Assembly: GCA_020346605.1 (NCBI GenBank)
Contig: CP070784.1
Coordinates: 370,192 to 434,191, forward strand
DNA length: 64,000 bases
Direction of reading: 5' to 3'
Origin: Candidatus Bathyarchaeota archaeon
GTDB lineage: Archaea > Thermoproteota > Bathyarchaeia > TCS64
Part shown: positions 528 through 46,107 of the stretch, piece after piece
Position numbering within the stretch: position 1 is the first letter of the stretch
Layout: each line of letters starts with the position of its first letter
Position numbers and translations under genes: made by a program
The notes under the pieces: model-generated
Databases searched by the model: none
The model's input: the letters and a program-made list of their open reading frames with translations, nothing else
Told to the model about the DNA's origin: nothing

Positions 528-1227
528 CTACTCTCCGATGGCGTACTGCAGCGCCTTCTCGGCGTAGATGACGGCTGAGTCGAAGAGCTTCACGCCTGTG
601 TGCTCAGGGGTGACGAGGAGCGGTATCTCCGTGCACCCCAGGACGACGCCCTGGGCCCCCCTCCCCACCAGGCCGTCGATGACCTCCAGGTAGCCCGTCC
701 TGGACCCCGGTAGGAGCAACCCCCTGGCGAGCTCCTCGAAGACAACCCTGTCTATCATCGCCCTCTCCTCCTCCCCCGGGACAAGGGCCTCGATCCCGTG
801 CTTCTTCAGCCCTTCCACGTAGAAGGGCTTCTCCATGGTGAACCTCGTGCCCAGCAGTCCGACGGTATCCATGCCCGCCTCCAAGATTACCTCGGCCGTG
901 GCGTCGACGATGCTCAGCAGCGGTAGGGGGGACCTCGTTTCCAGCTCCTCGAAGAGGAAGTACATCGTGTTGGTGGTTATGACGGAAGTCGGCCCCCGCC
1001 GCCTCCAGCCTCCCCAGGCCCTCCAGCAGCGCCGCCCCGATGCTGTCCCAGTCCTCCACCGCCATCCAGTCCTCGAACCTCTGGAAACTGACGTCGTAGA
1101 TCACCATCTCCGGGTACCCCAGGTCGCCGTGGAGCTCCTCGTACCTCCTGAAGATGTGCTGATAGTAAGAGACAGTGGACTCGGCCGTCATACCCCCGAG
1201 GATCCCTATCCTCTTGTACATACGCAT
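528..1227 (-). pseudogene. Aspartate/glutamate racemase family protein, interrupted by a +1 frameshift
   Basis: Two overlapping frames together give one intact racemase. Residues from the 1227 start carry RIGILGGMTAESTVSYYQ, the family N-terminus. After EAAGADF the reading must shift to continue as VITTNTMYFLFEELE and on to GCTEIPLLV, which holds the second catalytic Cys, ending at 528. One surplus G in the pair at 984-985 (plus strand) causes the shift, and removing it restores about 232 residues. The family interconverts L- and D-aspartate or glutamate with two acid/base residues. The first site here is Thr (TTNT) rather than Cys, as in YgeA-type enzymes. It may be a real pseudogene or a base-call error. 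Confidence 0.75.
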
Positions 1228-1925: not shown

Positions 1926-2933
1926 CTACTCGAAGGCTCCCCACTTCATGAAGGACCTGTAGGCCACGTCGTTGACCTCGGGTGCGACTCTTATGTGCAC
2001 CAGCTCGGGGTACTGCCGGGCTATGAACCCGCCGTCCCTCGTCCCGAGCTTTCCAGTTAGAAGCCTGGCCTCCTCGTCGATCGCCTCCGCGTCCCCAGTC
2101 ACGAGCACCTTCTGTATGTCTATGCAGCAGTCGAAGCAGATCTTGCTGGCGAAGTTCTCGCTGAGCCACTGGACACCGCATTGGTGGGGCGCGTCGATCT
2201 GGATTATGTCCAGCCCCGCCTCGATGAGGGGGCCGATGATTGCGGTGATGTTGCCACAGCTGTGGAGGAAGGTGTGCATCCCCCTGCTCCTCGCCTCCCC
2301 GAAGATCCGCCTGTAGTAGGGCTCGAAGACCTCCAGCCAGAGCCTGGGGCTGATCATCAGCTTGGACTGGTCGCCCCAGTCGTCCGTGAAGCCCACGCAG
2401 TCGACCCCCAGCGCCGAGTAGCCCCTGATCAGCTCCAACTTGAACTCGGTTATCACCTCCAGGAGCGCGTGAACCCTCTCGCGGTTCGCGAAGAGGTCCC
2501 TCACGGTCTCGTTCAGCCCGCGCATGAAGTGGAGCCTCTCCCAGATTCCGAAGTCCAGGCCGCCGACGACGTATTTGCCGATCTCCTTGAGGCGGTCCAC
2601 CTTCGCGTCCACGCCTTGGAACCTTGCCTCCAGCCCAATCTCGGGGAACTGGAACCCCTCGAACGCCTCCCAGTCCTTGAGGGGGTGGACCAGCGGCTGG
2701 CCCATCGTGGGTATGGACTTGTAGCTGACCCAGGTGCAGCCCCACTCGTCGGTGGACCTGACCTCGTCGCCCCTCTCCTCGACGACAGGCTCCCTGAGGG
2801 AGTTAAACCCGGTCCAGATAATGTCGCTCCGCTCAAGGTCGGGCACGGTGACGCCGTGCACGTACCATTCCAAGGGCACGCGGTCCGGCCTCTTGAACTC
2901 CACAGCCCTCCTGACCCTCTCCCTGCTGTCCAT
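1926..2933 (-). CDS. URO-D-fold corrinoid methyltransferase (MtaA/MtbA/MtoB-like)
   Basis: A 335-residue uroporphyrinogen-decarboxylase-superfamily protein beginning MDSRERVRRAVEFKRPDRVP, the usual start of corrinoid-linked members. The zinc-binding H-x-C appears in FLHSCGNITA at about residue 220. The expected third ligand Cys near the C-terminus is not obvious, since the region reads LVHIRVAPEVND. It sits last in a three-gene run (URO-D, corrinoid protein, URO-D). Members transfer methyl groups between a methylated substrate, a corrinoid protein and a thiol or pterin; true heme-pathway decarboxylation is unlikely beside B12 proteins. Substrate unknown. Confidence 0.8.
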   Translation of the reverse strand: MDSRERVRRAVEFKRPDRVPLEWYVHGVTVPDLERSDIIWTGFNSLREPVVEERGDEVRSTDEWGCTWVSYKSIPTMGQPLVHPLKDWEAFEGFQFPEIGLEARFQGVDAKVDRLKEIGKYVVGGLDFGIWERLHFMRGLNETVRDLFANRERVHALLEVITEFKLELIRGYSALGVDCVGFTDDWGDQSKLMISPRLWLEVFEPYYRRIFGEARSRGMHTFLHSCGNITAIIGPLIEAGLDIIQIDAPHQCGVQWLSENFASKICFDCCIDIQKVLVTGDAEAIDEEARLLTGKLGTRDGGFIARQYPELVHIRVAPEVNDVAYRSFMKWGAFE

Positions 2934-2989
2934 CGAGACCCCTCCATGTCTAGTCGATCTGTCCCAAGGAAAAAGACGTCATCGCCCTG

Positions 2990-3637
2990 CTACGCCCACC
3001 CGCTCACAATCCTGACGCCCATGACGGCGTCTGTCGCGACCGCGTCGGCGCCGATCTCCTCAGCGAACTCCTGCGTCATTGGGGCGCCGCCGACGATCAC
3101 CTTTACGCCGTCCCTGAGCCCCTGCCTCTCCAGCTCCGCGATGACGCTCCCCATCCCACCCATCGTCGTGGTCAGGAGCGCCGACATCGCCAACAGCTGC
3201 GGCTCGTGCTCCCTGACCGCCTCCACGAACTGCTCCGGCGAGACGTCGACTCCCAGGTCGATCACCTCGTAGTTCTGGGCCTTCAGGAGGGACGCGAAGA
3301 CGTTCTTGCCGATGTCATGCAGGTCTCCCTTGACCGTGCCGATCACGCACCTGCCGGCGCTCTTCATTTCGACGGCCCTGAGGTGGGGCTCCAAGACAGC
3401 CATGCCCTCCTTCATCGTCTCCCCCGCCATGATCAGCTCGGCGAGGTAGTACTCGCTGTCCTCGTACTTCTGGCCGACGACCTCCATCCCCTTGGCCATG
3501 CCATCGATCACGGCCTCATGGGCAGGCACTCCGGCTTCCAACGCCTCCTCGCAGAGCCGGGGAATCGCGTCTATGTCCAGTTCGACGATGGCGTCGCTCA
3601 GCCTCTGCAAAATCTCCGATCTTTCGGACATAGTCAA
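2990..3637 (-). CDS. Methyltransferase corrinoid protein (MtaC/MtbC/MtoC-like)
   Basis: A 215-residue methyl carrier. Residues 1-90 are the four-helix cap domain. Residues about 96-215 are the B12-binding Rossmann domain with the D-x-H-x-x-G signature at D105, H107 and G110 (GDLHDIGKN), whose His is the lower axial cobalt ligand. The MSALLTTTMGGM and VIVGGAPMT segments complete the dimethylbenzimidazole-binding pocket. Its start overlaps the stop of the upstream URO-D gene by four bases (3634-3637), so translation is probably coupled. It should shuttle a methyl group between the flanking URO-D proteins; substrate is unknown. Confidence 0.92.
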   Translation of the reverse strand: MTMSERSEILQRLSDAIVELDIDAIPRLCEEALEAGVPAHEAVIDGMAKGMEVVGQKYEDSEYYLAELIMAGETMKEGMAVLEPHLRAVEMKSAGRCVIGTVKGDLHDIGKNVFASLLKAQNYEVIDLGVDVSPEQFVEAVREHEPQLLAMSALLTTTMGGMGSVIAELERQGLRDGVKVIVGGAPMTQEFAEEIGADAVATDAVMGVRIVSGWA

Positions 3638-4692
3638 TACTTCCCGTATTTTCTTATAAGATCGATAACCCGCTGGTACTGTTCGAAGCTGACGGTGTTA
3701 GGGACGCTGTGGTCGCTGTGGTAGACGTACCCGCCCCCCTCCTTGGCCGTCGTCACCTTCTCGCTGATCTCTTTCTCCAGGGGTCCGGGGTCGTCCAGGT
3801 CCATGAGCCTCACGTCGATGCCACCCATGTACGCCATCTCGTCGCCGTACTCCTGCTTCAGCTCGACGAGGTCCATCCCGGCCTTGACCTCCAGCGGCTG
3901 GATGCAGTCGATCCCCTCCTCTATGAAGTAGGGTATCAGGGCCTTGATGTTTCCGCAGCAGTGGAGGATGACCTGCATGCCCCTCGCGTGGAAGAAGTCG
4001 CAGAGCTCCTTGAACACGGGGTGGAGCTGCTCCTCGTAGTGCCTTGGCGAGAAGAAGGGGCCGTGCCTGTAGCCCAGGTCGCAGAAGAGGAAGGCGCCGT
4101 CGAACTCGAAGCCTCCCCCGATCATCCGGTCGCACATCTCCATGACCAGCCTGGCGTCGGTCCAGTACATGTCCATGACCCACTCGGGCTCGCGGATCAC
4201 CGCCCTCAGCAGCCGCTCGGAGGCGACGTACTTCTGCAGCTTGTCGTATCCGACGATCGCGTTGAAGGTTACGTACCGTCCAAGGCTCCTCTCCCTCTGC
4301 GAGTTCCTGAGGTCCGTGACCCAGTCCACCCTCCTGTCGCTGGGCTGGATCCTGGGCTTGATCGCCTCCCAGTCCTCACGGCTCTTGCAGGGGTAGTCGA
4401 CGATCATCGGGGTGGTGGTGAAGTCCCTGTGGTTCTTCCTGACGCCGCCGTAGCTGTCCCGCTCCACGATGTACTCGTCGTCGATGGAGATGATCTCCTC
4501 CTTGAATCGAGGGCCCGTGTCCGCACCGAAGCCCACAAGCTCGTAGCCGAAATAGTCCTGGGGATCTATACCCGAGGGGAGGCCCTCCGTGCGCCACCTG
4601 TCGACGGTTGCCTGCCACGGGTTGTCGTGGATGGGGACCCGGTCCGGCTCTCGGTGCTCTAGGGCCATCCTGACCCTCTTACGGGAATCCAT
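3634..4692 (-). CDS. URO-D-fold corrinoid methyltransferase (MtaA/MtbA/MtoB-like)
   Basis: A 352-residue member of the URO-D superfamily starting MDSRKRVRMALEHREPDRVP. It has a canonical zinc motif ILHCCGNIKALIPYF at about residue 240 and the C-terminal GGGYVYHSDHSVPNTVSFE common to URO-D proteins encoded beside corrinoid carriers. It is the first gene of a coupled trio and overlaps the following corrinoid gene by ATGA. Expected role: methyl transfer between a methylated substrate and cob(I)alamin, or onward from methyl-cobalamin. It is more conventional than the neighbour ending at 4804. O-demethylase versus second-step transferase cannot be told by eye. Confidence 0.82.
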   Translation of the reverse strand: MDSRKRVRMALEHREPDRVPIHDNPWQATVDRWRTEGLPSGIDPQDYFGYELVGFGADTGPRFKEEIISIDDEYIVERDSYGGVRKNHRDFTTTPMIVDYPCKSREDWEAIKPRIQPSDRRVDWVTDLRNSQRERSLGRYVTFNAIVGYDKLQKYVASERLLRAVIREPEWVMDMYWTDARLVMEMCDRMIGGGFEFDGAFLFCDLGYRHGPFFSPRHYEEQLHPVFKELCDFFHARGMQVILHCCGNIKALIPYFIEEGIDCIQPLEVKAGMDLVELKQEYGDEMAYMGGIDVRLMDLDDPGPLEKEISEKVTTAKEGGGYVYHSDHSVPNTVSFEQYQRVIDLIRKYGKY

Positions 4693-4803
4693 GCAATCGC
4701 GAAATGATAGAGAGATCTATCTATTTCACTCTTCGCAGGATTGAGACTAATCCATTACACGCCCTAGCACGCGCATGAGTCACTGCGAAAGAGGCGCTCG
4801 ATG

Positions 4804-6033
4804 TTAATATGCGCCGTATCTCTTCACGGCTTTGACCATCGCGTGCACGTTCTCGGGCCTCGCGTTGTAAGGTATTGTGACGGCGGGGCTGAGTATGAAG
4901 CCTCCTCCGGGTTTGACGTCCTCGAGCAGGTCTTTCACGTAGTCCTCCATCTTGTCGGGGGCGCCCATGAAGAGCGACGGTGGAGGGCCACCTATGATGC
5001 AGGAGTGGTCACCTATCACCTCCTTAGCCCTGCGCAGATCAGTCTTCTCGAACCTGGAGACCGTCTTGCCCTTGGGGAGCTCCAGTATCGTCTCCAGGTG
5101 CGCGTCGTGGTACCCCTCGTAGAAGATGCTCGGAATCAGGCCGAGCCTTATCAGCTCCATGCACGCCTCCTTCAGGGTGGGCCAGTAGAACTCGTTGTAC
5201 TGCTTGGGAGAGAAGTACTCGTTCAGATGGAGCGGGATGAAGACCTGCGAGCCCTCCGGATTTTCCTTCGCGGTCATCCCCGCCATCTCGACGATCAATC
5301 CCAGCACGGCCTCGCAGGCCTCCTTGACTTTTTCGGGCATCCTGAAGCAGTCGAGGAGGACGTTCTTGATGTCCCTCATGTAGTCCCCTATGAGGTCGAG
5401 GGGAGCGTACGACATCCCGCGGGAAAATATGGGGAACCCGAGCCGCCTCAGCTCATCAGAGGTCCTCGACGACCACTCGGAGCGCCTCCTGGTCTCCACT
5501 CCAAACTTGATCAGTGCCGCCATCGCCTCGGGGGAACCGAGCCTCTCCAAGCTCCTGACGGATCTAGGCAGTATTTTCTCGAGAATGAACCTGCCAGGGT
5601 CCTCTATCAGCTCGTCGTACTCGTCAGGCTTCATGAACTCCTGCCCGATGAACTGATAAGGACTGTCGTCGGGCAGCTCCCTCCCGGGGAACCTGCCGTA
5701 CCTCACCCCCAGTATGTCGTGAATGTTGCCGTTCACTGACGAGGGGACGAGCCCCCCGTACTCCCTCATGAGCCCCAGGCATATCGGTAGGATCCCCAAC
5801 CCCCCTCCTCCCCCGCTCGCCGTGTCCGCGCCGAAGTCCACCGAGGTCTTAATGGCGGCCTGGCCCGATTTCTCGTAGTCGTCGAGGTACTCTCGGTGGG
5901 TCAGCCCGCAGTACCCGGCGGCGAAGAAGCCTGAGACCCCCGTCACGGGGACCCTGTCCGGCGTCTTCAGGCCATAGGCCCTCTCGAGCCTCTCCTTCCG
6001 CCGATCGTGCAGCTCCTCGTAGTCGACGCTCAC
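4804..6033 (-). CDS. URO-D-fold methyltransferase, long subtype lacking the HxC zinc motif
   Basis: A 409-residue URO-D-superfamily protein, about 60 residues longer than its two neighbours. It opens with DRRKERLERAYGLKTPDRVP and keeps the family C-terminus (GGGFILSPAVTIPYNARPEN). At the position of the H-x-C-G zinc site it reads SIFYEGYHDAHLE, so the usual Zn ligands are absent. This EG-x-Y-x-x-x-LE form is a subfamily I recall from anaerobes degrading aromatics and methylated compounds. Its start overlaps the corrinoid stop (6030-6033), so the two are translationally coupled and likely partners. Confidence 0.8.
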   Translation of the reverse strand: MSVDYEELHDRRKERLERAYGLKTPDRVPVTGVSGFFAAGYCGLTHREYLDDYEKSGQAAIKTSVDFGADTASGGGGGLGILPICLGLMREYGGLVPSSVNGNIHDILGVRYGRFPGRELPDDSPYQFIGQEFMKPDEYDELIEDPGRFILEKILPRSVRSLERLGSPEAMAALIKFGVETRRRSEWSSRTSDELRRLGFPIFSRGMSYAPLDLIGDYMRDIKNVLLDCFRMPEKVKEACEAVLGLIVEMAGMTAKENPEGSQVFIPLHLNEYFSPKQYNEFYWPTLKEACMELIRLGLIPSIFYEGYHDAHLETILELPKGKTVSRFEKTDLRRAKEVIGDHSCIIGGPPPSLFMGAPDKMEDYVKDLLEDVKPGGGFILSPAVTIPYNARPENVHAMVKAVKRYGAY

Positions 6034-6671
6034 GCCTCGGCCCCCCTGAGAAGCTGCTTACACAGCCTAACCCCCGTTGCCGCGTTGTCTGTGGCCGCGT
6101 CGGGCTTGACGTAGTCTCTGGCGTGTTCGTCCATCCTTCCGCCGCCGACGATGATCCTAACCCTGTCTCTCAAACCTGCCTCGGTTATCGCGTCGACGGT
6201 CTGCTTGGTCGATTCGATCGCCACGGTCAGCAGACTGCTCATCCCCACGATGTCGGGCTCGTGTTCCTTGATGGCCTCGACGAACTTGTTGGGCGGAACG
6301 TCGACGCCGAGGTCCACCACCTCGAACCCCTCAGCCTCCAATAGCGCGATGGCTATGTTCTTTCCGATGTCGTGCACGTCCCCCTCCACGGTGCCGATGA
6401 CGATCTTCCCGACGTTCCCGGTGACGGATCTCTTCAGCTGGGGCCTCACCGAGTCCGCTATCTGGGTGAAGATCTCCGCAGCCATGATCATCTCTGACAG
6501 GAAGAACTCCCCCTTCTCGAAGCGTTCCCCGACGATGGACATTCCTTGCCTACATCTCTCCAGTATCTCGACGGGATCCACGCCGGCTTCGAGTGCCTCC
6601 CCGACCCTCCCCAGCGCCGCTTGCTCGTCCAGATCAACGATCGCCTCAACGAGGCTTTCAACAGAAGACAT
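6030..6671 (-). CDS. Methyltransferase corrinoid protein (MtoC/MtbC-like)
   Basis: A 213-residue two-domain corrinoid carrier: a helical cap (residues 1-85), then a B12 domain with D98, H100 and G103 in GDVHDIGKN, the MSSLLTVAIEST loop and RIIVGGGRMDE. The His replaces the cobamide lower ligand. It lies between the corrinoid-reactivating protein (63 bp upstream) and the 409-residue URO-D protein (4-bp overlap). That order is what one expects for carrier, activator and methyltransferase I. The substrate depends on the URO-D partner and is not known. Confidence 0.92.
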   Translation of the reverse strand: MSSVESLVEAIVDLDEQAALGRVGEALEAGVDPVEILERCRQGMSIVGERFEKGEFFLSEMIMAAEIFTQIADSVRPQLKRSVTGNVGKIVIGTVEGDVHDIGKNIAIALLEAEGFEVVDLGVDVPPNKFVEAIKEHEPDIVGMSSLLTVAIESTKQTVDAITEAGLRDRVRIIVGGGRMDEHARDYVKPDAATDNAATGVRLCKQLLRGAEA

Positions 6672-6733
6672 GGTTACAAAGAAACTTTCTGATTGATATT
6701 AAAACTTGCGAGGACGCTCTGCCCGTGTCTGAG

Positions 6734-8527
6734 TCAGGGGGCCCGTTCCCTTGTTCCCCAGTGTATCCGGCTAACCGTGAGATTCTCACGGCTCAGCCTC
6801 TCCACAGTCTCCGGGAAGAGGCTCAGGTCCCGGTGGGGGAAGAGCAAGGCGTCCACGTAGGCCTGGTTGTACTCGGGCTGTGCGGCCAGCTCCACGTACT
6901 CTACCATCCTGCCGATCTCCTTGGCCTCCTCCCTCGCCGACCTGGAGATCAGGGCCATCCGCGCCCCAGTGCCAGCGGCGTTCCCCACCTGCTTGATCTT
7001 CGACAGCGGGAACTCGGGGATCATCCCCAAGTTTATGGCGCTCTCCCGGTCGATGTACGTCCCGAAGGCCCCGGCCATGTACACCTTTTCGAAGTCGCCC
7101 GGTGCAGCCCCCAGCCTCTCCATGGCGATCTGGGCGCCCGAGAACATCGCCGCCTTCCCCTTCTGGAGCTCTCGGACGTCCAGCTGGCTCAGAGAGATGT
7201 CCTCCCCCGTGCCCGAGTCATCCCCCCAGACGAGCACGTACTCCAGCGCACCGCCGCTTCTACTGATCCGCGAAGTACCCCTCTCCTCCCTGATCCTCCC
7301 AGAGGTGTCGATTATCCCTGTCCTGAGCATCTCCGAGAGGGCGTCGATGAGGCCGGACCCGCAGATCCCCAAGGGCTCGGTGCCGTCGATGGTCTTGAGC
7401 TTAGGCTCAAGATCGTCACGATCTATCCACACGCCCTCGATGGCCCCGGATGCTGCCCTCATGCCTTGCCCTATGTGGGCGCCCTCGAAGGCGGGGCCCG
7501 AGGCGCAGGAGCAGGCGACCATCCTCTCCCTGCTGCCGACCACGACCTCGGTGTTGGTGCCTATGTCGATGAGGAAGCAGGTCTCGTCGTCCGCTTGGAC
7601 ACCCGTGGCTAGGATCGCCGCTACGCAATCGGCGCCCACGAAGCCGTCGATGACAGGCAGGACATGGATGTTCCCCCTAGAGTTGGCGAGGCCCAGCGAC
7701 GCGGGGTCGACGTCCCTGTGCTCCGGGTTCTCGGGCTTGAAGGGGCTGTGGGTCAGCGGCTCGGGGTCGATGTCCAAGAGGAAGTGCTGCATCGCCGTGT
7801 TCCCCACGAAGACCTGCTCGTAGACGTCCTGGGGGCTCTCGTCGGCCTCGGTGCAGGCGTTTGAGAGTAGCCGGCTGATTCCTTTGACCAGCGAGCTATG
7901 GAGGTCGTGCCGGTAGCTCTCGCCCTTCAGGGAGTAGGAGAGCCGGCTGATGATGTCCTCGCCGAAGGCTATCTGGGGGTTCTGTCCGGCCTCGACGCTC
8001 AGCACCTCGCCCGTTGAGAGGTCCATGAGGTAACCGGCTATCTTGGTGGTCCCGACGTCCACTGCGAAGCCGAGGATGGGACGGTCGCCGGATCCGAGTG
8101 TCTCGATGGGCTCGTCGCCGAGGAACACCGTCGTGACTCCGTCCTTGGTCCGCCTCGTGACGAGTGGTTCGAGCCTCACAGGTGTGTCCAGGCCTTCGGT
8201 CTGCAGCCTCTGGGTGCCCGTCCTGCTCTCCTCGGGGACAAGCACAACGGTGTCGCCACCCATCCTTGTTCGGCATGCGAGCCTGAACCCTTCATCCAGG
8301 CTGCGCTGGCCCAGCAGGCTGAACTCCTCGGAGGCCGGCGCGCTGAGGGCGACCGAGCTATCCGTGACCTTGATGACGCACTTCCCGCAGGAGGCTGTCC
8401 CCCCGCAGAGGGCGTTGATATCCACGCCGAGCTTGCGGGCGGCATCCAATACCGTGGTTCCTAGGGCGAAGCTGCCGCGCTTTCCATCCGGCTGGAACAC
8501 CACCTCGAAGCTCGGCGGCAATGTCAT
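6734..8527 (-). CDS. Corrinoid-reactivating ASKHA ferredoxin protein (RACE/MtoD-like)
   Basis: A 597-residue reductive activator of corrinoid enzymes. Residues 7-90 form a plant-type [2Fe-2S] domain with Cys at 41, 47, 50 and 85 (CGGTASCGKC and FRLAC). The remainder is the DUF4445/ASKHA ATPase fold, with FAVDVGTTKIAGYLMD at about 155 and LIDIGTNTEVVVG in the middle. This is the bacterial-type layout rather than methanogen RamA, which carries C-terminal [4Fe-4S] clusters. It re-reduces accidentally formed Co(II) to Co(I) with ATP, keeping the neighbouring corrinoid carriers active. It is divergent from the MtrH-like gene, sharing a 94-bp intergenic region. Confidence 0.9.
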   Translation of the reverse strand: MTLPPSFEVVFQPDGKRGSFALGTTVLDAARKLGVDINALCGGTASCGKCVIKVTDSSVALSAPASEEFSLLGQRSLDEGFRLACRTRMGGDTVVLVPEESRTGTQRLQTEGLDTPVRLEPLVTRRTKDGVTTVFLGDEPIETLGSGDRPILGFAVDVGTTKIAGYLMDLSTGEVLSVEAGQNPQIAFGEDIISRLSYSLKGESYRHDLHSSLVKGISRLLSNACTEADESPQDVYEQVFVGNTAMQHFLLDIDPEPLTHSPFKPENPEHRDVDPASLGLANSRGNIHVLPVIDGFVGADCVAAILATGVQADDETCFLIDIGTNTEVVVGSRERMVACSCASGPAFEGAHIGQGMRAASGAIEGVWIDRDDLEPKLKTIDGTEPLGICGSGLIDALSEMLRTGIIDTSGRIREERGTSRISRSGGALEYVLVWGDDSGTGEDISLSQLDVRELQKGKAAMFSGAQIAMERLGAAPGDFEKVYMAGAFGTYIDRESAINLGMIPEFPLSKIKQVGNAAGTGARMALISRSAREEAKEIGRMVEYVELAAQPEYNQAYVDALLFPHRDLSLFPETVERLSRENLTVSRIHWGTRERAP

Positions 8528-8576
8528 CGAAGACCATTGTGGGCTGGGGCGTTATGGCTTTTCCCCCTCAGAACCG

Positions 8577-8585
8577 CTTAAAAAG
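8577..8585 (+). promoter_or_regulatory. Putative TATA box for the mtrH-like gene
   Basis: CTTAAAAAG lies 37 bases before the GTG start at 8622 in the short divergent region shared with the RACE gene. Position and composition fit an archaeal TATA element giving a short leader. It sits inside the small inverted repeat CGCTT-AAA-AAGCG. Prediction only. Confidence 0.4.
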
Positions 8586-8621
8586 CGAAGGCTACAACTT
8601 GATGGAGAGGAGGTCGTCAGG

Positions 8622-9521
8622 GTGTTCGAGTATGCTGCGGAGCAGAGGACCTACGAGATCAGCGGCGTCAAGATCGGCGGTGAGCCGGGCCTAGTCCCGA
8701 CGGTGATGGTCGGCTCCATGTTCTACAACGGGCACATCGTCGTCGAGGACCCCGCAGAGGGGCTCTTCGACGAAGGGGCGGCGGAGGGCCAGCTGCGGAG
8801 GGCGGAGGAGATGTCCGACGCCACGGGGCTCCCGACTATGGTGGACCTGGTGGCGGAGAACGCCGTCGCCGCGGCGAGGTATCTGAACTTCATGGTGGCG
8901 AAGACGGAGATGCCCATTCTTCTGGACGTGGTCGACGAGGGTGCCATGGTCGAGTCGCTGCAGTACGCCTCTGACCAAGGGATGATGGACAGGATAATAC
9001 TGAACTCGCTGAACCCCCACTCGGGGGATCGGGTCTACCAGAGGATCGAGGAGGCGGGCTGCAGGAACGCCGTGCTGCTCCTCCACAGCACTCAGTACAT
9101 GTTGTCCTCGAACAAGGACGCACTGCTGGAGGAGATGATCCCCAAGGCCGAGGCTGCCGGGATCGAGAACATCCTCGTGGACACTGTGGTCATAGACATC
9201 CCCACCCTGGGCCTGGCGGCCAAGGCCATCGACCGGATCAAGGACAGGTACGGCTACCCGTGCGGATGCGGGGCCCACAACGCCATCGCCTCGTGGAAGA
9301 GGCTCAAGGAGAAGTACTGCGCCAAGGCGGTGACCACGGCCATCGGGGTGACCAGCGCCCTGCCCATCGCCGTCGGCGCCGACTATGTCTTCTACGGCCC
9401 CATGAGGAACGCAGAGGAGGTCTACCCAGCCATAGCCATGATCGATGCCGCCTACAGCCAGCAGGTGATGGAGAAGCGGATCAGGCTCGGCAGGGACCAC
9501 CCGAGGTACAGGATCGGGTAG
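8622..9521 (+). CDS. MtrH-family methyltransferase (tetrahydromethanopterin-linked; MtoA-like)
   Basis: A 299-residue TIM-barrel protein of the MtrH/MeTr family. GTG 8622 is chosen because a purine-rich GGAGAGGAGG lies just upstream and homology begins at FEYAAEQRTYEISGVKIGG. Family segments include VMVGSMFYNGHIVVED, the DLVAENAVAA strand, RIILNSLNPHSGD and CGAHNAIASWKRL. MtrH binds methyl-tetrahydromethanopterin and passes the methyl to or from a corrinoid. No other Mtr subunit is encoded nearby, so this is not the membrane Mtr complex. Next to RACE and corrinoid genes it most resembles MtoA-type proteins that move methyl groups from a corrinoid carrier to the pterin. Confidence 0.88.
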   Translation: MFEYAAEQRTYEISGVKIGGEPGLVPTVMVGSMFYNGHIVVEDPAEGLFDEGAAEGQLRRAEEMSDATGLPTMVDLVAENAVAAARYLNFMVAKTEMPILLDVVDEGAMVESLQYASDQGMMDRIILNSLNPHSGDRVYQRIEEAGCRNAVLLLHSTQYMLSSNKDALLEEMIPKAEAAGIENILVDTVVIDIPTLGLAAKAIDRIKDRYGYPCGCGAHNAIASWKRLKEKYCAKAVTTAIGVTSALPIAVGADYVFYGPMRNAEEVYPAIAMIDAAYSQQVMEKRIRLGRDHPRYRIG

Positions 9522-14844: not shown

Positions 14845-15023
14845 GCTAGAAATCTGGCCATCATCCTGCCATAACCGTAATTAAAATTTAAATATTAATG
14901 CCGTCTGCGTCGGAAGAAATCGCACGAATCCATCGGTTGTGTATACGAGCTACGAATCCGGGTCCAATCGTGGACGCTGTTTTATCTAAACAAGTTATTT
15001 TAAGTTATCCAGGCCAAGTATCC

Positions 15024-15680
15024 ATGATCATCTTGAGCGAAAAGATTCTGGAGGGGTTGAGGGAGGCCGTCCTTTACTTCGACGAGGAGGAGGCGAGGAG
15101 GCTGGCCGAGGAGGCCGTCGAAGCCGGACTCGACCCCGTCGAGGTCCTGGAGGAGGGGCTGGCGAAGGCGCTGAGGGAGGTGGGGGACCGCTTCGGGAGC
15201 GGCGAGGCCTTCATCACCGAGCTGATCGCCTCGGCTCAAGCGATGGAGGCGGGGGCCGAGGTCCTCAATCGCGAGATCGCTAGGCTGGGCGTGGCCCGGA
15301 AATCGGTGGGGAAGTTCCTCATCGGCACAGTGGAGGGGGACATCCACAGCATCGGCAAGAACATCGTCAAGACGATGCTGATCGCGGCGGGCTTCGAGGT
15401 GGTGGACCTCGGCACAGACGTGAAGACCGAGACGATCGTCGAGAAGGTGAAGGAGCTGGAGCCGGACATCATCGGGCTGAGCGCCCTCATGACCACCACC
15501 ATGACGAAGCAGAGGGAGGTGATCGAGGCCCTGAAGAAGGAGGGGCTGAGGGAGAAGGTCAAGATCATCGTGGGAGGAGCCCCCGTCACCGAGGAATGGG
15601 TCGAGGAGATCGGGGCCGACGCCTGCGGCTTCGACGCCGGCAGCGCCGTCGAGAACTCCCTCAGGCTGATGGGGGTATGA
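15024..15680 (+). CDS. Methyltransferase corrinoid protein (MttC-like)
   Basis: A 218-residue B12-binding methyl carrier. ATG 15024 is preferred over upstream starts because family homology begins there. The helical cap spans residues 5-90. The B12 domain has D106, H108 and G111 (GDIHSIGKN), LSALMTTTMTK and IIVGGAPVTEEW. Its stop is followed four bases later by the MttB-like gene, and its end supplies that gene's purine-rich ribosome-binding site, so the pair is one transcription unit. By analogy to MttC it accepts a methyl group from the downstream MttB homologue. Confidence 0.92.
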   Translation: MIILSEKILEGLREAVLYFDEEEARRLAEEAVEAGLDPVEVLEEGLAKALREVGDRFGSGEAFITELIASAQAMEAGAEVLNREIARLGVARKSVGKFLIGTVEGDIHSIGKNIVKTMLIAAGFEVVDLGTDVKTETIVEKVKELEPDIIGLSALMTTTMTKQREVIEALKKEGLREKVKIIVGGAPVTEEWVEEIGADACGFDAGSAVENSLRLMGV

Positions 15681-15684
15681 TCTG

Positions 15685-17136
15685 ATGGTGGATTTCAGAC
15701 TGCTCTCAAGAGAAGACGTGGACGCGATCCACGGCGCATCCCTCGACGTCTTGGAGAAAGTGGGGGTGATGGTGAAGAACGAACCAGCCATAGAACTGTT
15801 GAGAGAGGTGGGATGCTCCATCGACGGCGACGTCGTTCGCATCCCTCCCTCCCTCGTTGCCGATTCCATCAAGAAGGCACCCGAAAAGTTCCAGCTCCAC
15901 TCGACGGACGGTGGCCCCCAGTACACGGTGGGCGGCTCAAACGTCATCTACAACCCGGGCTCCGCCGCGATATTCTTCATCGACCGCGAGACGCATGAGA
16001 TGCGGAGGGCCAACGCAGCGGACTTTGTGGACCTCGTGAGACTCACGGACGCGCTGGAGCACATCCACGCCCAGAGCACCGCGATGGTCCCGGCGGACGC
16101 GCCGGAGATCATCTCCGACCTCTACAGGCTCTACGTCATACTGATGAACTCGGGCAAGCCGATCGTGACCGGGGCCTTCACCAAGGAGGGGCTCCTCGAC
16201 ATGAAGGCGATGCTCGAGGCGGTGGTCGGCGGGTCCGAGGAGCTCAGGAAGGGCCCCGCGGCGATCTTCGACTGCTGCCCCTCCTCACCGCTGATGTGGA
16301 GCGACGTCACCTGCCAGAACCTCATCGACTGCGCGGAGCACGGGATACCAGCCGAGATCATCCCAGCCCCCCAGATGGGGGCAACGAGCCCCGTCAGCAT
16401 CGCGGGGACCGTTGTCGAGGCGAACGCCGAGTTCCTGAGCGGCGCTGTGATCTCTCAGCTCGTGGAGCCCGGGGCGCCCATCATCTACGGTGGCTCCCCC
16501 TCGGCGTTCGACATGAGGCACTGCACTGCACGGCTGGGAGCCATCGAGGCAGTGATGACGGCGTGCGCGTCGGCGGAGATGGGGAAGCACTACGGGGTCC
16601 CCACGCAGGGCTACCTGGGGCTCAGCGACTCCAAGGCCGTGGACGGGCAGAGCAGCTTCGAATCGGGGATGGGCATAATGCTCGCTGCCTTGACCGGCGT
16701 GAATATCGTATCGGGCCCCGGGATGCAGGCCAGCGAGAACTGCCAGTCCCTGGGAAAGCTGGTGATAGACAACGAGTACTGCGGAGCCGCCTACAGGATG
16801 ATCGAGGGGATCAACGTGGACTCAGTCTCCCTCGCCGCAGAGGTGATAACCAAGGTGGGCCCCGGAGGGCACTTCCTGGCCGAGAAGCACACCAGAGAGA
16901 ACCTTAGGAAGGAGCGGTTCATCCCCTCCGACGTCCTGGACAGGCTCAGCCCAGACGCCTGGGTCAAGGCGGGCTCCCTCGACACCACCTACAGGGCCAG
17001 GGAGAGAGCCGAGAAGATCCTGAGGGACCACGAACCCTACTCGCTACCCAGCGACGCCGCCGAGGGGCTGCAGAGGACGCTGGAAGGAATCCTGGAGAGG
17101 CACGGGATCTCCCTATCCTCACTCCCAATTTTATAG
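15685..17136 (+). CDS. MttB-family methyltransferase, non-pyrrolysine type
   Basis: A 483-residue member of the trimethylamine methyltransferase (MttB) superfamily. It starts with FRLLSREDVDAIHGASLDVL and contains DCCPSSPLMWSDV, a long barrel with VISQLVEPGAPIIYGG, and CASAEMGKHYGVPTQGYLG. The frame is continuous with no internal TAG, so it carries no pyrrolysine. Non-Pyl members such as MtgB demethylate glycine betaine or other quaternary amines onto their cognate corrinoid protein, encoded directly upstream. Exact substrate (betaine, carnitine, proline betaine) cannot be read from sequence. No amine transporter lies adjacent. Confidence 0.9.
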   Translation: MVDFRLLSREDVDAIHGASLDVLEKVGVMVKNEPAIELLREVGCSIDGDVVRIPPSLVADSIKKAPEKFQLHSTDGGPQYTVGGSNVIYNPGSAAIFFIDRETHEMRRANAADFVDLVRLTDALEHIHAQSTAMVPADAPEIISDLYRLYVILMNSGKPIVTGAFTKEGLLDMKAMLEAVVGGSEELRKGPAAIFDCCPSSPLMWSDVTCQNLIDCAEHGIPAEIIPAPQMGATSPVSIAGTVVEANAEFLSGAVISQLVEPGAPIIYGGSPSAFDMRHCTARLGAIEAVMTACASAEMGKHYGVPTQGYLGLSDSKAVDGQSSFESGMGIMLAALTGVNIVSGPGMQASENCQSLGKLVIDNEYCGAAYRMIEGINVDSVSLAAEVITKVGPGGHFLAEKHTRENLRKERFIPSDVLDRLSPDAWVKAGSLDTTYRARERAEKILRDHEPYSLPSDAAEGLQRTLEGILERHGISLSSLPIL

Positions 17137-22958: not shown

Positions 22959-23660
22959 TCAAAGCTGAGACAAGAGCCTCCCGTGCCCCTCGACGCCACC
23001 GACCCCGAGAGCCCTGAGGCACGCCCACATCGAGGCCTGGTTACTGGTCACGATGGGCCTCCTCAACCGGGACTCCAGCCTGCCTATGAGGGGGACGGCG
23101 GGGAGGTTGGTACAGCTGATGAAGACACCGTCGCAGCCGCCCCCCACCTCGTCCACGAACCCCAGTATCCTCTCAGGGGCGACGTCGGCTATGTCGTGGT
23201 TGTCCACCAGCTGCAGCCCCTGTATGGCGCCGACGTCGAAGCCGTGAGCCTCGAGGAATCGCCGTTCGAGCTGGTTTATGTCATCGGTGTAGGGCGTGGC
23301 GACCCCCACCCGGCGGATGCCGAGAGATCTGAGCCCCTCCACGACTGCGCCGGCCGTCGAGACAGTTGGGATGCCCGTCTCCTCCTCGATCCTGGAGACG
23401 AGCCTCTCCTCCCATTCAACGCCCTTCAGGAGAGAGCCCGATGTGCACCCGTAGACCAGAACATCCACGCCAGCCGTCGCCAGGAGTGCTCCAGCTCTGA
23501 GGGCCTCAAGGGACATCGCCTCGAGCTCCTCCAGCGTCACCCTCTCGAGCAGTATCCTGGCGGAGTGAACTGTGACTCCCTCTGGCGCCATCCCGTAGAA
23601 GTCGGGCTCCATCGTAGTGTTGCTGGAAGGTAAGAGCAGGCCGATTCGTCGACTGGACAT
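22959..23660 (-). CDS. Maleate isomerase / arylmalonate decarboxylase family protein (Asp/Glu racemase superfamily)
   Basis: A 233-residue protein. RRIGLLLPSSNTTMEPDFY is the family N-terminus, VLVYGCTSGSLLKG holds the first catalytic Cys, GIRRVGVATPYTDDINQ the second half-domain, and GVFISCTNLPAVPLIG the second Cys. Members isomerise maleate to fumarate or decarboxylate arylmalonates by Cys-based proton transfer. It belongs to the same superfamily as the broken racemase at 528 but to a different branch. The substrate is not fixed by sequence. Monocistronic. Confidence 0.78.
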   Translation of the reverse strand: MSSRRIGLLLPSSNTTMEPDFYGMAPEGVTVHSARILLERVTLEELEAMSLEALRAGALLATAGVDVLVYGCTSGSLLKGVEWEERLVSRIEEETGIPTVSTAGAVVEGLRSLGIRRVGVATPYTDDINQLERRFLEAHGFDVGAIQGLQLVDNHDIADVAPERILGFVDEVGGGCDGVFISCTNLPAVPLIGRLESRLRRPIVTSNQASMWACLRALGVGGVEGHGRLLSQL

Positions 23661-42507: not shown

Positions 42508-44766
42508 TCAGCCCCTCAATGCCCTCAATATTTTTTCGGAGGTGATGGGTAGCTCCCTCATGGCGGCGCCCGTGGCGTTGTAGACGGCGTTCCGGACCGC
42601 CGGCGCTATAGGGATGACGGCCATCTCCCCGATGCCCTTGACGCCGTAGACAGTGTTGGGCTCCACGGGCTCCACGAGGATGACCTCCATCTCCGGCATC
42701 TCCGCGGCCCTGAGCACCTTGTAGTCGAGGAAGCTGTTGTTCAAGGGTTCCCCCGTCTCGGGGTGGAGTTTGAGCTCCTCGGTGAGGGCGTAGCCGATGC
42801 CCATCTGCATCCCGCCCTCTAGCTGTCCCTCAACCGACCTGGGATGAATCGCTCTACCGATGTCGGAGGCGGCAACTATCTTCAGCACCCTCACCATCCC
42901 GGTCTCCGTGTCCACTTCGACCTCCGCGAAGGCCGTACCATACGGGGGAACAAAGGTTGGGACGTTGTAAGTCGCCTCTTTCACGATGACATTGTCACCA
43001 CCGTGGAAAACGTCGGGGTGCCGCAGGACATCTCCGAAAGTCAGCTTCTGCTCCGGGACGCCTTTGGCGGAAATTATGCCTTCCTTAGCGTCCAGATCCT
43101 CGACGGGGACGTTCATTATGCCTGAGGCGAGTTCGAGGAGCCTTCCCTTCATCTGCTCAGCCGCCGTCTTCACCGCGCCTCCGGTCTCCATCGTGCTCCT
43201 GCTCGCAGCAGTGGTGGTGCCCCAGGGTGTGGTGGAGGTGTCCGCCAGGGTAACAGATATCTTGTCCAGACGTCCGCCAAGAGCCTCCGCGGCGATCTGG
43301 GCCATGACGGTCCTGAGGCCCTGCCCGATGTCAGGGACACCTAGCAGCAGGTGGAACGAGCCGTCGATGTTCACCTTCAGAACGGCGTTCCCGACGGACC
43401 TCTCGGTGTCCTTGAGCATGGGAGCGTAGTGGCTGTAGCAGGCCATGCCGATGCCCCTCTTGATGGTGCCCCCCTCGGCGCCTGGAGTCTTCTGCCTCCG
43501 CTCCCAGCCGATGGCGTCGCCACCCTTGAGCACCGCCTCCCTTAGGCCACTGCTGGTCACGGGCTTACCGTTTAGGGGAATGATGTCGCCGACGTGGAGC
43601 TGGTTCTTCAACCTGAACTCCTTGGGGTCCATCCCGATGGCGCAGGCGATCTCGTCGATCTCGGACTCCATGGCGAAGTGGATGGGGGTGCTCGTGAAGC
43701 CCCTCATGGCGCCGGAGGGCGGCGTGTTGGTGTAGACCCCGTGGCCGACGTACTTGATGTTGGGGCATCTGTAGAGGAGGGTCATATAGCTGGCGGCCCT
43801 GCTCGCCATGATGCCCCCCCAGGCGTAGGAGCCGATGTCGACGACGGCCTTGACCTGGCGGGCGACCAGCGTACCGTCTCTTTTTACACCCGTCTTGGTC
43901 TCGAAGACGCAGGGGGAACGGGTCCTAGTGGTGTGGAACACCTCCTCCCTGGAGAGCCTGAGCATCACGGGCCGCCCCGCCTTACGCGCGAGGAGGGCGA
44001 CGACGATCTTCTCAGCGCTCTCGTACTTTCCGCCGAAGCCGCCGCCTACGTGCGGTGGGACGATGAATCGGATCTTGCTCCGTGGGATGCCCAGCGCCTC
44101 AGAGAGGCTGTCCCTGATCATGAAGGCGGTCTGCTCCGAGCTCCACATTGTGAGGTTGCCGTCGCCATCCCAGGAAGCGAGCATGGCGTGGGGCTCCATA
44201 GCGCAGTGGCAGACCCTAGAGGTCGTGTACCGGTTCTCGAAGACGTTGTCGGCCTCCAGGAACCCCTCCTCAACGTCCCCCCACTCCTGAACCGAGAAGT
44301 CTAAGACGTTGCCGTCCACGTCTTCCCTCTCGGGGTGGATGACGGGGGCGCCGTGCTTCAGGGCCTCCTCCATATCGAAGACGGCGGGGAGGACCTCGTA
44401 CTCCACGTCGATGAGCACTAGGGCCTCCTCGGCCACCTCCTCGGAGACAGCGGCCACCGCGGCCACCTTATCTCCGTAGTACCTGACCCTGTCGTCGAGC
44501 CCGTACTCCCTGGCGCTTCCGTGGGTGGGCTTGTAGAGGATCTTCGCCTCCCTGTGTGTGATCACGGCCTTCACGCCGGGGAGCGCCTCGGCCCTGCTGG
44601 TGTCGATGCCCCTGATCCTGGCGTGGGCGTGGATGCTCCTCAGCATCTTGGCGTGGAGCATTCCGGGGGGCTGCAAGTCCACAGTGTAGACGGCGGTCCC
44701 CTTCACCCTCTCGCCTGAGCCCTTCATCGGGGGCGAAGTCCCGACCACGGACAGCTTTTCGTCCAT
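42508..44766 (-). CDS. Molybdenum hydroxylase large subunit (xanthine dehydrogenase/CoxL family)
   Basis: A 752-residue molybdopterin-binding subunit. It opens with GTSPPMKGSGERVKGTAVYT, then has PHVGGGFGGKYESAEKIVV, the Moco-binding glycine loop, GAMRGFTSTPIHFAMESEI around the first Moco-contact region, and VYGVKGIGEMAVIPIAP near the C-terminus. The CODH-specific selanyl-cysteine loop (AYRCSFR) is absent, so it is not an aerobic CO dehydrogenase. It hydroxylates an aldehyde, purine, nicotinate or aromatic acyl-CoA type substrate. It is the third gene of a three-gene operon, 4 bp after the [2Fe-2S] subunit. Confidence 0.92.
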   Translation of the reverse strand: MDEKLSVVGTSPPMKGSGERVKGTAVYTVDLQPPGMLHAKMLRSIHAHARIRGIDTSRAEALPGVKAVITHREAKILYKPTHGSAREYGLDDRVRYYGDKVAAVAAVSEEVAEEALVLIDVEYEVLPAVFDMEEALKHGAPVIHPEREDVDGNVLDFSVQEWGDVEEGFLEADNVFENRYTTSRVCHCAMEPHAMLASWDGDGNLTMWSSEQTAFMIRDSLSEALGIPRSKIRFIVPPHVGGGFGGKYESAEKIVVALLARKAGRPVMLRLSREEVFHTTRTRSPCVFETKTGVKRDGTLVARQVKAVVDIGSYAWGGIMASRAASYMTLLYRCPNIKYVGHGVYTNTPPSGAMRGFTSTPIHFAMESEIDEIACAIGMDPKEFRLKNQLHVGDIIPLNGKPVTSSGLREAVLKGGDAIGWERRQKTPGAEGGTIKRGIGMACYSHYAPMLKDTERSVGNAVLKVNIDGSFHLLLGVPDIGQGLRTVMAQIAAEALGGRLDKISVTLADTSTTPWGTTTAASRSTMETGGAVKTAAEQMKGRLLELASGIMNVPVEDLDAKEGIISAKGVPEQKLTFGDVLRHPDVFHGGDNVIVKEATYNVPTFVPPYGTAFAEVEVDTETGMVRVLKIVAASDIGRAIHPRSVEGQLEGGMQMGIGYALTEELKLHPETGEPLNNSFLDYKVLRAAEMPEMEVILVEPVEPNTVYGVKGIGEMAVIPIAPAVRNAVYNATGAAMRELPITSEKILRALRG

Positions 44767-44770
44767 CTCT

Positions 44771-45247
44771 CTATGCTCCCCTCCCTGAGACGGAGAGCAC
44801 AGCCTCGACGATCTTCTTGTACCCCGTGCACCTGCAGAGGTTGCCCTGGAGTGCCTCCCTGACGTCCTCCTCCGTGGGATCCGGGTTGTCGTCGAGCAGC
44901 GCCTTCGCCGACATGATCATCCCCGGGGTGCAAAAGCCACACTGGACAGCACCGTGCTCTACGAACGCCTCCTGGAGGGGGTGGAGGACCCCCTCGATCT
45001 GGAGCCCCTCTATGGTGGTTATCTCCTTCCCCTCAGCGCCAATGGCGAGGATGAGGCAGGAGGGTACTGCCCTCCCGTCGATGATGACGGTGCAGGCGCC
45101 GCACTCCCCGTCGCCACACCCTAGTTTTGTTCCAGCGAGACCGAGTTCCTCACGGAGGACCTTGAGCAACGTCCAACCCGGCTCCACGAAGGCCTCCCGG
45201 GGCTCCCCGTTCACGTCCAGGACTACCCTCACCTTCATACTGCTCAC
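44771..45247 (-). CDS. Molybdenum hydroxylase [2Fe-2S] subunit (CoxS-like)
   Basis: A 158-residue iron-sulfur subunit. The N-terminal plant-type [2Fe-2S] domain has CGDGECGACTVIIDG and the C-terminal four-helix [2Fe-2S] domain has CGFCTPGMIMSAKAL and NLCRCTGYKKIVEA. Electrons flow from Moco through both clusters to FAD. The ATG at 45247 overlaps the stop of the FAD subunit (45244-45247), so the two are coupled; ATG 45238 is the alternative start. Sits between the FAD and Moco subunits. Confidence 0.95.
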   Translation of the reverse strand: MSSMKVRVVLDVNGEPREAFVEPGWTLLKVLREELGLAGTKLGCGDGECGACTVIIDGRAVPSCLILAIGAEGKEITTIEGLQIEGVLHPLQEAFVEHGAVQCGFCTPGMIMSAKALLDDNPDPTEEDVREALQGNLCRCTGYKKIVEAVLSVSGRGA

Positions 45248-46107
45248 CCCTCACTCGCCCTCTCCAAGGCAATCGTGATGCACCTCTTCACTAGCACCTT
45301 CCCCGCCTCCCGCCTGTAGCCAGCAGAGGAGCGGACATCGCTTATCGGTCGGATCTCTCCAGTCGCTGCCTCCGCGGCCTCATCAATCAGTACCGCATCG
45401 AGGTCCTTTCCGATGAGCAAACTCTCAGTCTCCACGACCCGTAGGGGTGTGGGCGCCACTGACCCCAGCGCTATCCTTACCTCGCTGAACGTTCCGTCAT
45501 CCCCCAGGGTGACGCGGACGGCGGCGTTCACGAGGGCTATGTCGACGCTCGTCCTCCCGATCTTGGCAAACGCCGTTCCTGTGCGTGGCGGTTGATGGGG
45601 GACTCGAATCTCAGTCAGCAGCTCGGTATCCCGGAGGATGTTCTTTCTCACGTCGACGAAGAACTCGTCCATTGCGACCGTCCTAACGCCGTCCGGGCAG
45701 GATATCTTAACCTCTGCGTCGAGCACGATGAAGGGTGGTGCCAAATCGGCCGATGGCACGGAGCTGCAGAGATTCCCCCCGACTGTCGCCAAGTTGCGGA
45801 CGTTCTTGTGCCCGAAGTTTCGCGCCGCCTCAGCTAGGACCTTGAGTGGCCCGTTGAGCAGGCCGTGGTTCCTGATGCCTTCCAGTGTGGTCAGGGCCCC
45901 TATCCTCAGGCCTGTTTCGTCATTCTCGATGTAGTCCAGGGGGAGCGAGGAGATGTCGACCAGGCATCCAATGCCGCTGGGCTTTTCGATCAGGAGGTCG
46001 GTCCCCCCAGCCATGATCATGGCTTCGCTCCCGTGCTCGGAGAGCAGGTCCAGGGCCTCTCCCACCGTACTCGGCCTGACGTAAGTCCCGGGATTAAAAT
46101 TATGCAC
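45244..46107 (-). CDS. Molybdenum hydroxylase FAD-binding subunit (CoxM-like)
   Basis: A 287-residue FAD subunit of the vanillyl-alcohol-oxidase fold. NFNPGTYVRPSTVGEALDL is the usual opening, IMAGGTDLLIEK and NLATVGGNLCSSVPSADLAP are the FAD pyrophosphate-binding loops, and TELLTEIRVPHQPPRTG and VDIALVNAAVRVTLG complete the CO_deh_flav C-terminal domain. It is the promoter-proximal gene of the M-S-L operon. It passes electrons to NAD(P), ferredoxin or another acceptor not identifiable here. Confidence 0.93.
   Translation of the reverse strand: MHNFNPGTYVRPSTVGEALDLLSEHGSEAMIMAGGTDLLIEKPSGIGCLVDISSLPLDYIENDETGLRIGALTTLEGIRNHGLLNGPLKVLAEAARNFGHKNVRNLATVGGNLCSSVPSADLAPPFIVLDAEVKISCPDGVRTVAMDEFFVDVRKNILRDTELLTEIRVPHQPPRTGTAFAKIGRTSVDIALVNAAVRVTLGDDGTFSEVRIALGSVAPTPLRVVETESLLIGKDLDAVLIDEAAEAATGEIRPISDVRSSAGYRREAGKVLVKRCITIALERASEG

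Follow-up and report, generated by a model that had tools for sequence, protein, structure and literature searches.

We analysed a stretch of 64,000 nucleotides (here called the window, positions 370192 to 434191 of a single contig of 2,302,660 bases, CP070784.1) from a Candidatus Bathyarchaeota archaeon, in which seven genes at 1926-9521 encode the parts of a putative corrinoid-dependent methyltransferase system. The minus strand carries UroA (1926..2933), a protein of 335 aa with the uroporphyrinogen decarboxylase (URO-D) fold, an HSCGN motif and a Pfam URO-D score of 65 bits, standing on an orphan branch; CorA (2990..3637), a predicted corrinoid carrier (B12-binding_2 and B12-binding domains) and the partner of UroB; UroB (3634..4692), a URO-D-fold protein of 352 aa with an HxCG motif; UroC (4804..6033), a predicted methyltransferase I (MTI) of the MtoB/CdmB type, with 409 aa and a His269/Glu306/Glu329 triad; CorC (6030..6671), an MtoC-type corrinoid carrier and the partner of UroC; and RACE (6734..8527), an MtoD-like corrinoid-reductive activase with an N-terminal 2Fe-2S domain (Fer2), a RACo middle region (Raco_middle) and an ASKHA C-terminus (RACo_C_ter). 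On the plus strand lies MtrH (8622..9521), an MtoA-like methyl-corrinoid:tetrahydropterin methyltransferase II (MTII) of 299 aa with a GTG start. This inventory agrees with the first-pass annotation, which had listed three proteins of the URO-D fold, two corrinoid carriers, a corrinoid-reactivating ASKHA protein and an MtrH-family protein, and all seven score far above the Pfam cut-offs.

The layout differs from the contiguous cluster with ATGA overlaps described there, since MtrH is divergent from the six other genes and the overlaps are of other kinds. CorC and UroC share GTGA (6030-6033), and the UroB/CorA junction is either a TTGA overlap (3634-3637) or a 2-nt gap. The intergenic gaps measure 62 bp (RACE/CorC), 111 bp (UroC/UroB) and 56 bp (CorA/UroA). 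The divergent RACE and MtrH start codons are 94 bp apart, and the region between them (8528..8621) contains the TATA-like CTTAAAAAG before MtrH; a TATA-like box also lies upstream of CorC, and both boxes are present in relatives as well. The MtrH open reading frame (ORF) as listed opens far upstream of GTG 8622, which is the likely start, standing behind a Shine-Dalgarno-like GGAGAGGAGG and being the position from which full-length relatives align. The divergent MtrH, the gaps and the TATA-like boxes rule out a single operon, and because of them the cluster probably comprises three or four transcription units.

Profile searches across the genome (2.30 Mb) returned only five URO-D, four B12-binding_2, two RACo and one MtrH match, so that the presence of seven such genes within 7.6 kb is not a product of chance; parts of the arrangement were found again in genomes of the same order. 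The second RACo protein lies at 1.77 Mb and is 31% identical to RACE. A further URO-D protein (weak Pfam match, 31 bits) occurs beside a corrinoid protein, without MtrH, at genome positions of about 974-976 kb (L031:754-2743). Near the window's left edge (L050:9747-10118), a run of N falls within an ORF whose ends resemble a dehydrogenase and an amidohydrolase, and the single contig is thus interrupted at least once, by a scaffold gap or a masked stretch. Plasmid records gave distant matches only.

A family search of the host genome found no alpha subunit of methyl-coenzyme M reductase (MCR), while CdhC, the beta subunit (acetyl-CoA synthase) of carbon monoxide dehydrogenase/acetyl-CoA synthase (CODH/ACS), and Mch are both present. 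With this combination, the host appears to have a Wood-Ljungdahl branch based on tetrahydromethanopterin (H4MPT) without methanogenesis. Heme biosynthesis and coenzyme M (CoM) methyltransferase were considered as identities of the URO-D proteins and rejected on curated cut-offs and the absence of an MCR alpha partner: only UroC matches the HemE equivalog at all (25.7 bits against a cut-off of 303), and the three proteins reach 53.7, 41.4 and 37.7 bits with the MtaA/MtbA family model, for which 244 are needed.

MtrH exceeds the general MtrH-family cut-off, but its scores fall short of both the mtrH equivalog (190.9 bits vs 271.4 needed) and the MtgA equivalog (235.5 bits vs 550). In the tree it joins the MtrH proteins of two archaeal mto-like clusters, L200 and L205 (support 100/99), apart from MtgA (6sj8) and from MtrH of the Mtr complex (9qtp). 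Its Asp102 and Asn220 are conserved and correspond to the Asp and Asn residues that are changed in MtgA variant entries 6sjo and 6sjp, and PDB 8z9u is its nearest solved structure. An Mtr-complex identity is ruled out by the score, the tree position and the fact that this is the only MtrH of the genome. None of the outcomes that the first-pass annotation had named as refuting its reading occurred, either for the URO-D proteins or for MtrH. The proposal that the corrinoid module passes methyl groups to a tetrahydropterin instead of CoM is supported by the missing MCR alpha, the presence of CdhC and Mch, and a lone MtrH distinct from both the Mtr-complex and the MtgA types; we consider methyl transfer into H4MPT very probable.

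The nature of the donor depends above all on UroC and CorC. UroC matches were found in 43 of 398 Thermoproteota genomes. In a scan of named genomes, its relatives were Bathyarchaeota contigs (60-70% identity), three of which had also turned up separately as order-mates, and, at 43-47%, Tepidanaerobacter, Thermovorax, Fervidicola and their kin, together with one metagenome-assembled genome (MAG) assigned to Ignisphaera; the best Acetobacterium dehalogenans match, at 35%, was CdmB itself. Among the paralogs of the latter organism, OdmB and VdmB were assigned by their size (36 kDa). The UroC group, an archaeal mto-like group, thermophilic Clostridia and CdmB form a single clade (100/100), inside which CdmB is a long lone branch. 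Several archaeal members of this clade are encoded in clusters of CorC, UroC, MtrH and RACE: L194 (in the order CorC-UroC-MtrH-RACE), L200 and L205 hold all four, and L206 has the first three, with no RACE nearby. In Fervidicola, two genes for transporters of the major facilitator superfamily (MFS) stand among tandem UroC/CorC genes. CorC shares 50-57% identity with the corrinoid carriers of the archaeal mto-like clusters, compared with 42% for CdmC, and its nearest solved relatives, 1y80 and 4jgi, come ahead of the trimethylamine carrier 7xcn; we take the first of these to be an acetogen carrier and the second an O-demethylase carrier.

As side observations on this family, two Chloroflexi contigs each carry a corrinoid protein gene followed by UroC-like genes in tandem, six on L083 and about seven on L089. 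A UroC-like gene that is interrupted by two in-frame stops and looks like a decaying copy occurs in a Thermoproteota genome of 1.88 Mb (L181, G193 1064281-1068504), whose genus is also that of the Ignisphaera-assigned MAG.

In another reading, UroC is a Cdm-like haloalkane demethylase that would move the methyl group of chloromethane or small haloalkanes to CorC, with MtrH passing it on to H4MPT. CdmB is the sole solved relative of UroC found by sequence search (PDB 9rui, full length, E 7e-72), cdm homologues have been reported in Asgard archaea (PMC13222342), and the window also encodes two reductive-dehalogenase-like iron-sulphur proteins (PF13486; 34707-35891 and 41235-42506 on the plus strand, about 5 kb apart). 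However, the triad argues otherwise. Across 123 aligned family members, among them CdmB twice as the sole Cdm sequence, position 269 is His in 120, position 306 is Glu in 120, and position 329 holds Glu in 74 members and Asp in 48; a His-Glu-Glu or His-Glu-Asp triad is present in 118 of the 123 and is kept in UroC, whereas CdmB has lost the His and Glu and shows Trp, Gln and Asp. These three residues and a hydrophobic centre free of metal were taken as marks of the Cdm type. For the CdmB protein itself, no zinc and no active catalytic role have been reported (PMC13222342). With its triad kept, UroC resembles the non-Cdm members, as far as one Cdm sequence allows us to infer. Moreover, CorC is closer to the Mto-cluster carriers than to CdmC, the MTII of the window is a PF02007 MtrH and not CdmA, related archaeal clusters gave no CdmA-like match, and UroC stays below the 40% identity to CdmB used as the threshold of the Cdm group. 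We therefore regard a haloalkane donor as unlikely.

The AlphaFold 2 models of UroC (mean predicted local distance difference test, pLDDT, 92) and UroB (pLDDT 86, URO-D/MtbA fold) were also used in fold searches, in which all URO-D-fold proteins scored alike and CdmB was absent from the structure-library matches.

On balance, we read the locus as a methyl-intake module feeding acetyl-CoA metabolism, with aromatic O-demethylation through UroC-CorC, at a probability of roughly 0.6, and a methoxylated aromatic (for example, from lignin fragments) is accordingly the donor that we predict for UroC, with similar reserve. Several observations weigh against it. UroC shares 35-36% identity with CdmB, an enzyme acting on haloalkanes and not on methoxyaromatics; this exceeds the 31% published for MtoB and CdmB (PMC13222342). 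The UroC tree compared archaeal mto-like cluster proteins, Clostridia and CdmB, and within it a sister clade of UroC and CdmB obtained p=0.32 in the approximately unbiased (AU) test, the same value as the alternative uniting all but CdmB, so that neither is rejected and the tree by itself does not decide between Mto and Cdm. MFS transporters, typical of Mto clusters and non-essential there, are absent from the ORFs at 1926-9521. In favour of an aromatic donor, a UbiD-type decarboxylase lies divergent from CorC on a Bathyarchaeota contig whose CorC-UroC pair is 67-70% identical to that of the window (L056), and the host genome has two UbiD copies; UbiD is, for its part, widespread in archaea. 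Against it, finally, UroA and UroB fall outside the O-demethylase branches, on two uncharacterised ones. Of the methoxy-aromatic donors put forward by the first-pass annotation, the fit of the UroC-CorC pair stands, while the closeness to CdmB had not been foreseen and the donor is a prediction only.

UroA, UroB and UroC occupy three separate branches of the tree, and the earlier idea that all of them are O-demethylases is consequently unsupported. That they might be aromatic O-demethylases differing in ring specificity would suit their shared fold and cluster and the parallel systems of acetogens (the A. dehalogenans genome has 28 URO-D matches), but the separate branches, a UroB family that is widespread without corrinoid partners and a UroA with at most 28% identity to anything compared, including the whole tree set, make it very improbable. 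Close UroB orthologs (>550 bits, 63-75% identity) occur in 18 other genomes among the 398 Thermoproteota, and this conservation extends over several families of the phylum. Most of them stand at least about 8 kb from any corrinoid protein related to those of the window, and the adjoining genes that were inspected were unrelated ones, but a CorA homolog (60-67%) lies beside the UroB ortholog in some Bathyarchaeia. The HxCG motif is found in all UroB orthologs, and in a profile match to 4ay7 it aligns with the zinc-site region of MtbA, as does the corresponding motif of UroA. No UroA ortholog was found at the order-mate loci. Because it is paired with CorA, UroB can be regarded as a putative MTI, and we tentatively suggest, though with considerable doubt, that the pair serves some class of methyl donors without a known enzyme, as a methyltransferase system plugged into a shared MtrH and RACE.

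The surroundings of MtrH in related genomes bear on this sharing. MtrH orthologs with 60-75% identity are present in several order-mates, in which the divergently placed partner varies: RACE-CorC-UroC in L041 and L043, CorC-UroC in L042, RACE in L037 and L038, and UroB-CorA, with its pairing kept, in L036, L039, L040 and L053. In two of the last, which are sister genomes, a RACE remnant persists between MtrH and UroB (L036:3656-3781, about residues 5-46; L053:856-969, about residues 2-39). Since this fragment alone remains there, the RACE-CorC-UroC block was apparently lost from a window-like arrangement.

A third pair lies 5.4 kb from MtrH in the window and consists of CorD (14898..15680, plus strand), a corrinoid carrier, and an MttB-superfamily MTI (15685..17136, plus strand; 483 aa, PF06253 337 bits). 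The nearest solved relatives of the latter are 9yce, a glycine betaine methyltransferase, and 2qne, and the gene has no in-frame stop and is therefore of the non-pyrrolysine type; its donor is probably a quaternary amine. As CorD-MttB adjoins the other side of MtrH in sister genome L036, MtrH is probably the shared acceptor enzyme of several input modules, and the partner swaps around it further support this, with UroC-CorC, UroB-CorA and MttB-CorD as separate inputs.

The same genes could also work in the anabolic direction, with MtrH loading the corrinoid proteins from CH3-H4MPT and the URO-D proteins methylating thiols, methionine or cofactor precursors. This has been proposed for the published CoP-MtrH couples of Bathy-6 (PMC7886697), and it agrees with the thiol enzymes among URO-D methyltransferases, with the alignment of the UroA and UroB motifs to the MtbA zinc-site region and with the UroB orthologs that lack any methylotrophy context. 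Nevertheless, a layout in which one MtrH and one RACE are surrounded by several dedicated MTI-corrinoid pairs is catabolic, one UroC relative is accompanied by transporters, and the scores with the CoM/thiol methyltransferase model are far below its cut-off; we thus judge the anabolic direction quite improbable.

In the catabolic route that we favour, UroC would transfer the methyl group of the donor to Co(I)-CorC, giving CH3-Co(III)-CorC, from which MtrH would pass it to H4MPT, while RACE would re-reduce CorC after its oxidation to Co(II). The resulting CH3-H4MPT could be converted to acetyl-CoA by CODH/ACS or oxidized by Mch and the rest of the branch. UroB-CorA and MttB-CorD would probably each bring in methyl groups from a further specific donor, using the same MtrH and RACE, and UroA may do so too. 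If this is true, the range of methyl donors of a Bathyarchaeia lineage becomes testable with purified parts. Bathyarchaeia abound in sediments, and a link between them and the methoxy groups of lignin has been drawn; here a full set of MTI, corrinoid protein, activator and MtrH occurs alongside an MCR-free, H4MPT-based pathway to acetyl-CoA, with several MTI-corrinoid pairs surrounding one MtrH in the same genome. The His-Glu-Glu/Asp triad may, in turn, separate O-demethylases from Cdm-type dehalogenases within one branch.

Elsewhere in the window, a molybdenum hydroxylase of the xanthine/CO dehydrogenase type, complete with its three subunits (42508-46107, minus strand; MoCoBD, 2Fe-2S and FAD subunits), could act on aromatics. 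An Asp/Glu-racemase-like gene at 528-1227 (minus strand) appears to be broken into two frames (604-1227 and 528-965), and a second protein of the arylmalonate-decarboxylase/racemase type is encoded at 22959-23660.

Among known systems, the closest in composition is Mto of Methermicoccus shengliensis and Archaeoglobus fulgidus (PMC8630106, PMC8359953), which likewise combines a URO-D-fold MTI of about 46-48 kDa (47-48 kDa for MtoB; PMC8630106), a small corrinoid carrier, a 2Fe-2S/RACo activator and an MtrH-family MTII outside the Mtr complex (MtoA is MtrH-like; PMC8630106) that delivers to H4MPT and not to CoM. UroC, CorC, RACE and MtrH would correspond to MtoB, MtoC, MtoD and MtoA, the CorC/UroC/MtrH/RACE gene set is that of the published mtoC/mtoB/mtoA/mtoD, and mtoABC homologues are known in Bathyarchaeota (PMC8359953). 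MFS transporters, as in Fervidicola, are found in the A. fulgidus mto cluster too. Unlike Mto, the present locus has a divergent MtrH, the extra UroB-CorA and UroA, a neighbouring MttB-CorD and an MCR-less bathyarchaeial host. The Cdm system of A. dehalogenans (CdmB, CdmC and CdmA) shares the superfamily branch and the paired corrinoid protein with UroC-CorC, but its MTII is the MeTr-type CdmA acting on tetrahydrofolate, and it uses haloalkanes instead of methoxyaromatics (PMC13222342). Glycine betaine MtgBCA of Desulfitobacterium hafniense resembles the locus in an MtrH-family MTII working on a stand-alone corrinoid protein and in an MttB-family MTI like the neighbour at 15685-17136; however, its MTII uses tetrahydrofolate, and the window MtrH stands on a separate branch, well under the MtgA cut-off.

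Within the Bathyarchaeia, two cultured cases have been reported without a corrinoid activator, one of them with an unrelated MTI (PMC10477458, PMC10989822). MtgABC of Ca. Baizosediminiarchaeum ligniniphilus has a host of the same class and channels methoxy groups to H4MPT and acetyl-CoA, but its MtgB (about 300 aa) lacks homology to the known MTIs, and an activator was not found there (PMC10989822), whereas the MTIs of the locus belong to Pfam URO-D and an activator is present. The O-demethylase cluster of Bathyarchaeum tardum, which grows on vanillate and 3,4-dimethoxybenzoate, shares the class and the acetogenic reading; it consists, from its description, on which our comparison is based, of three neighbouring genes without the activating enzyme that the window has (PMC10477458). 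Aromatic O-demethylation in Bathyarchaeia is thus already published, and the locus is a fuller, multi-input member that adds an activator and two unassigned URO-D branches.

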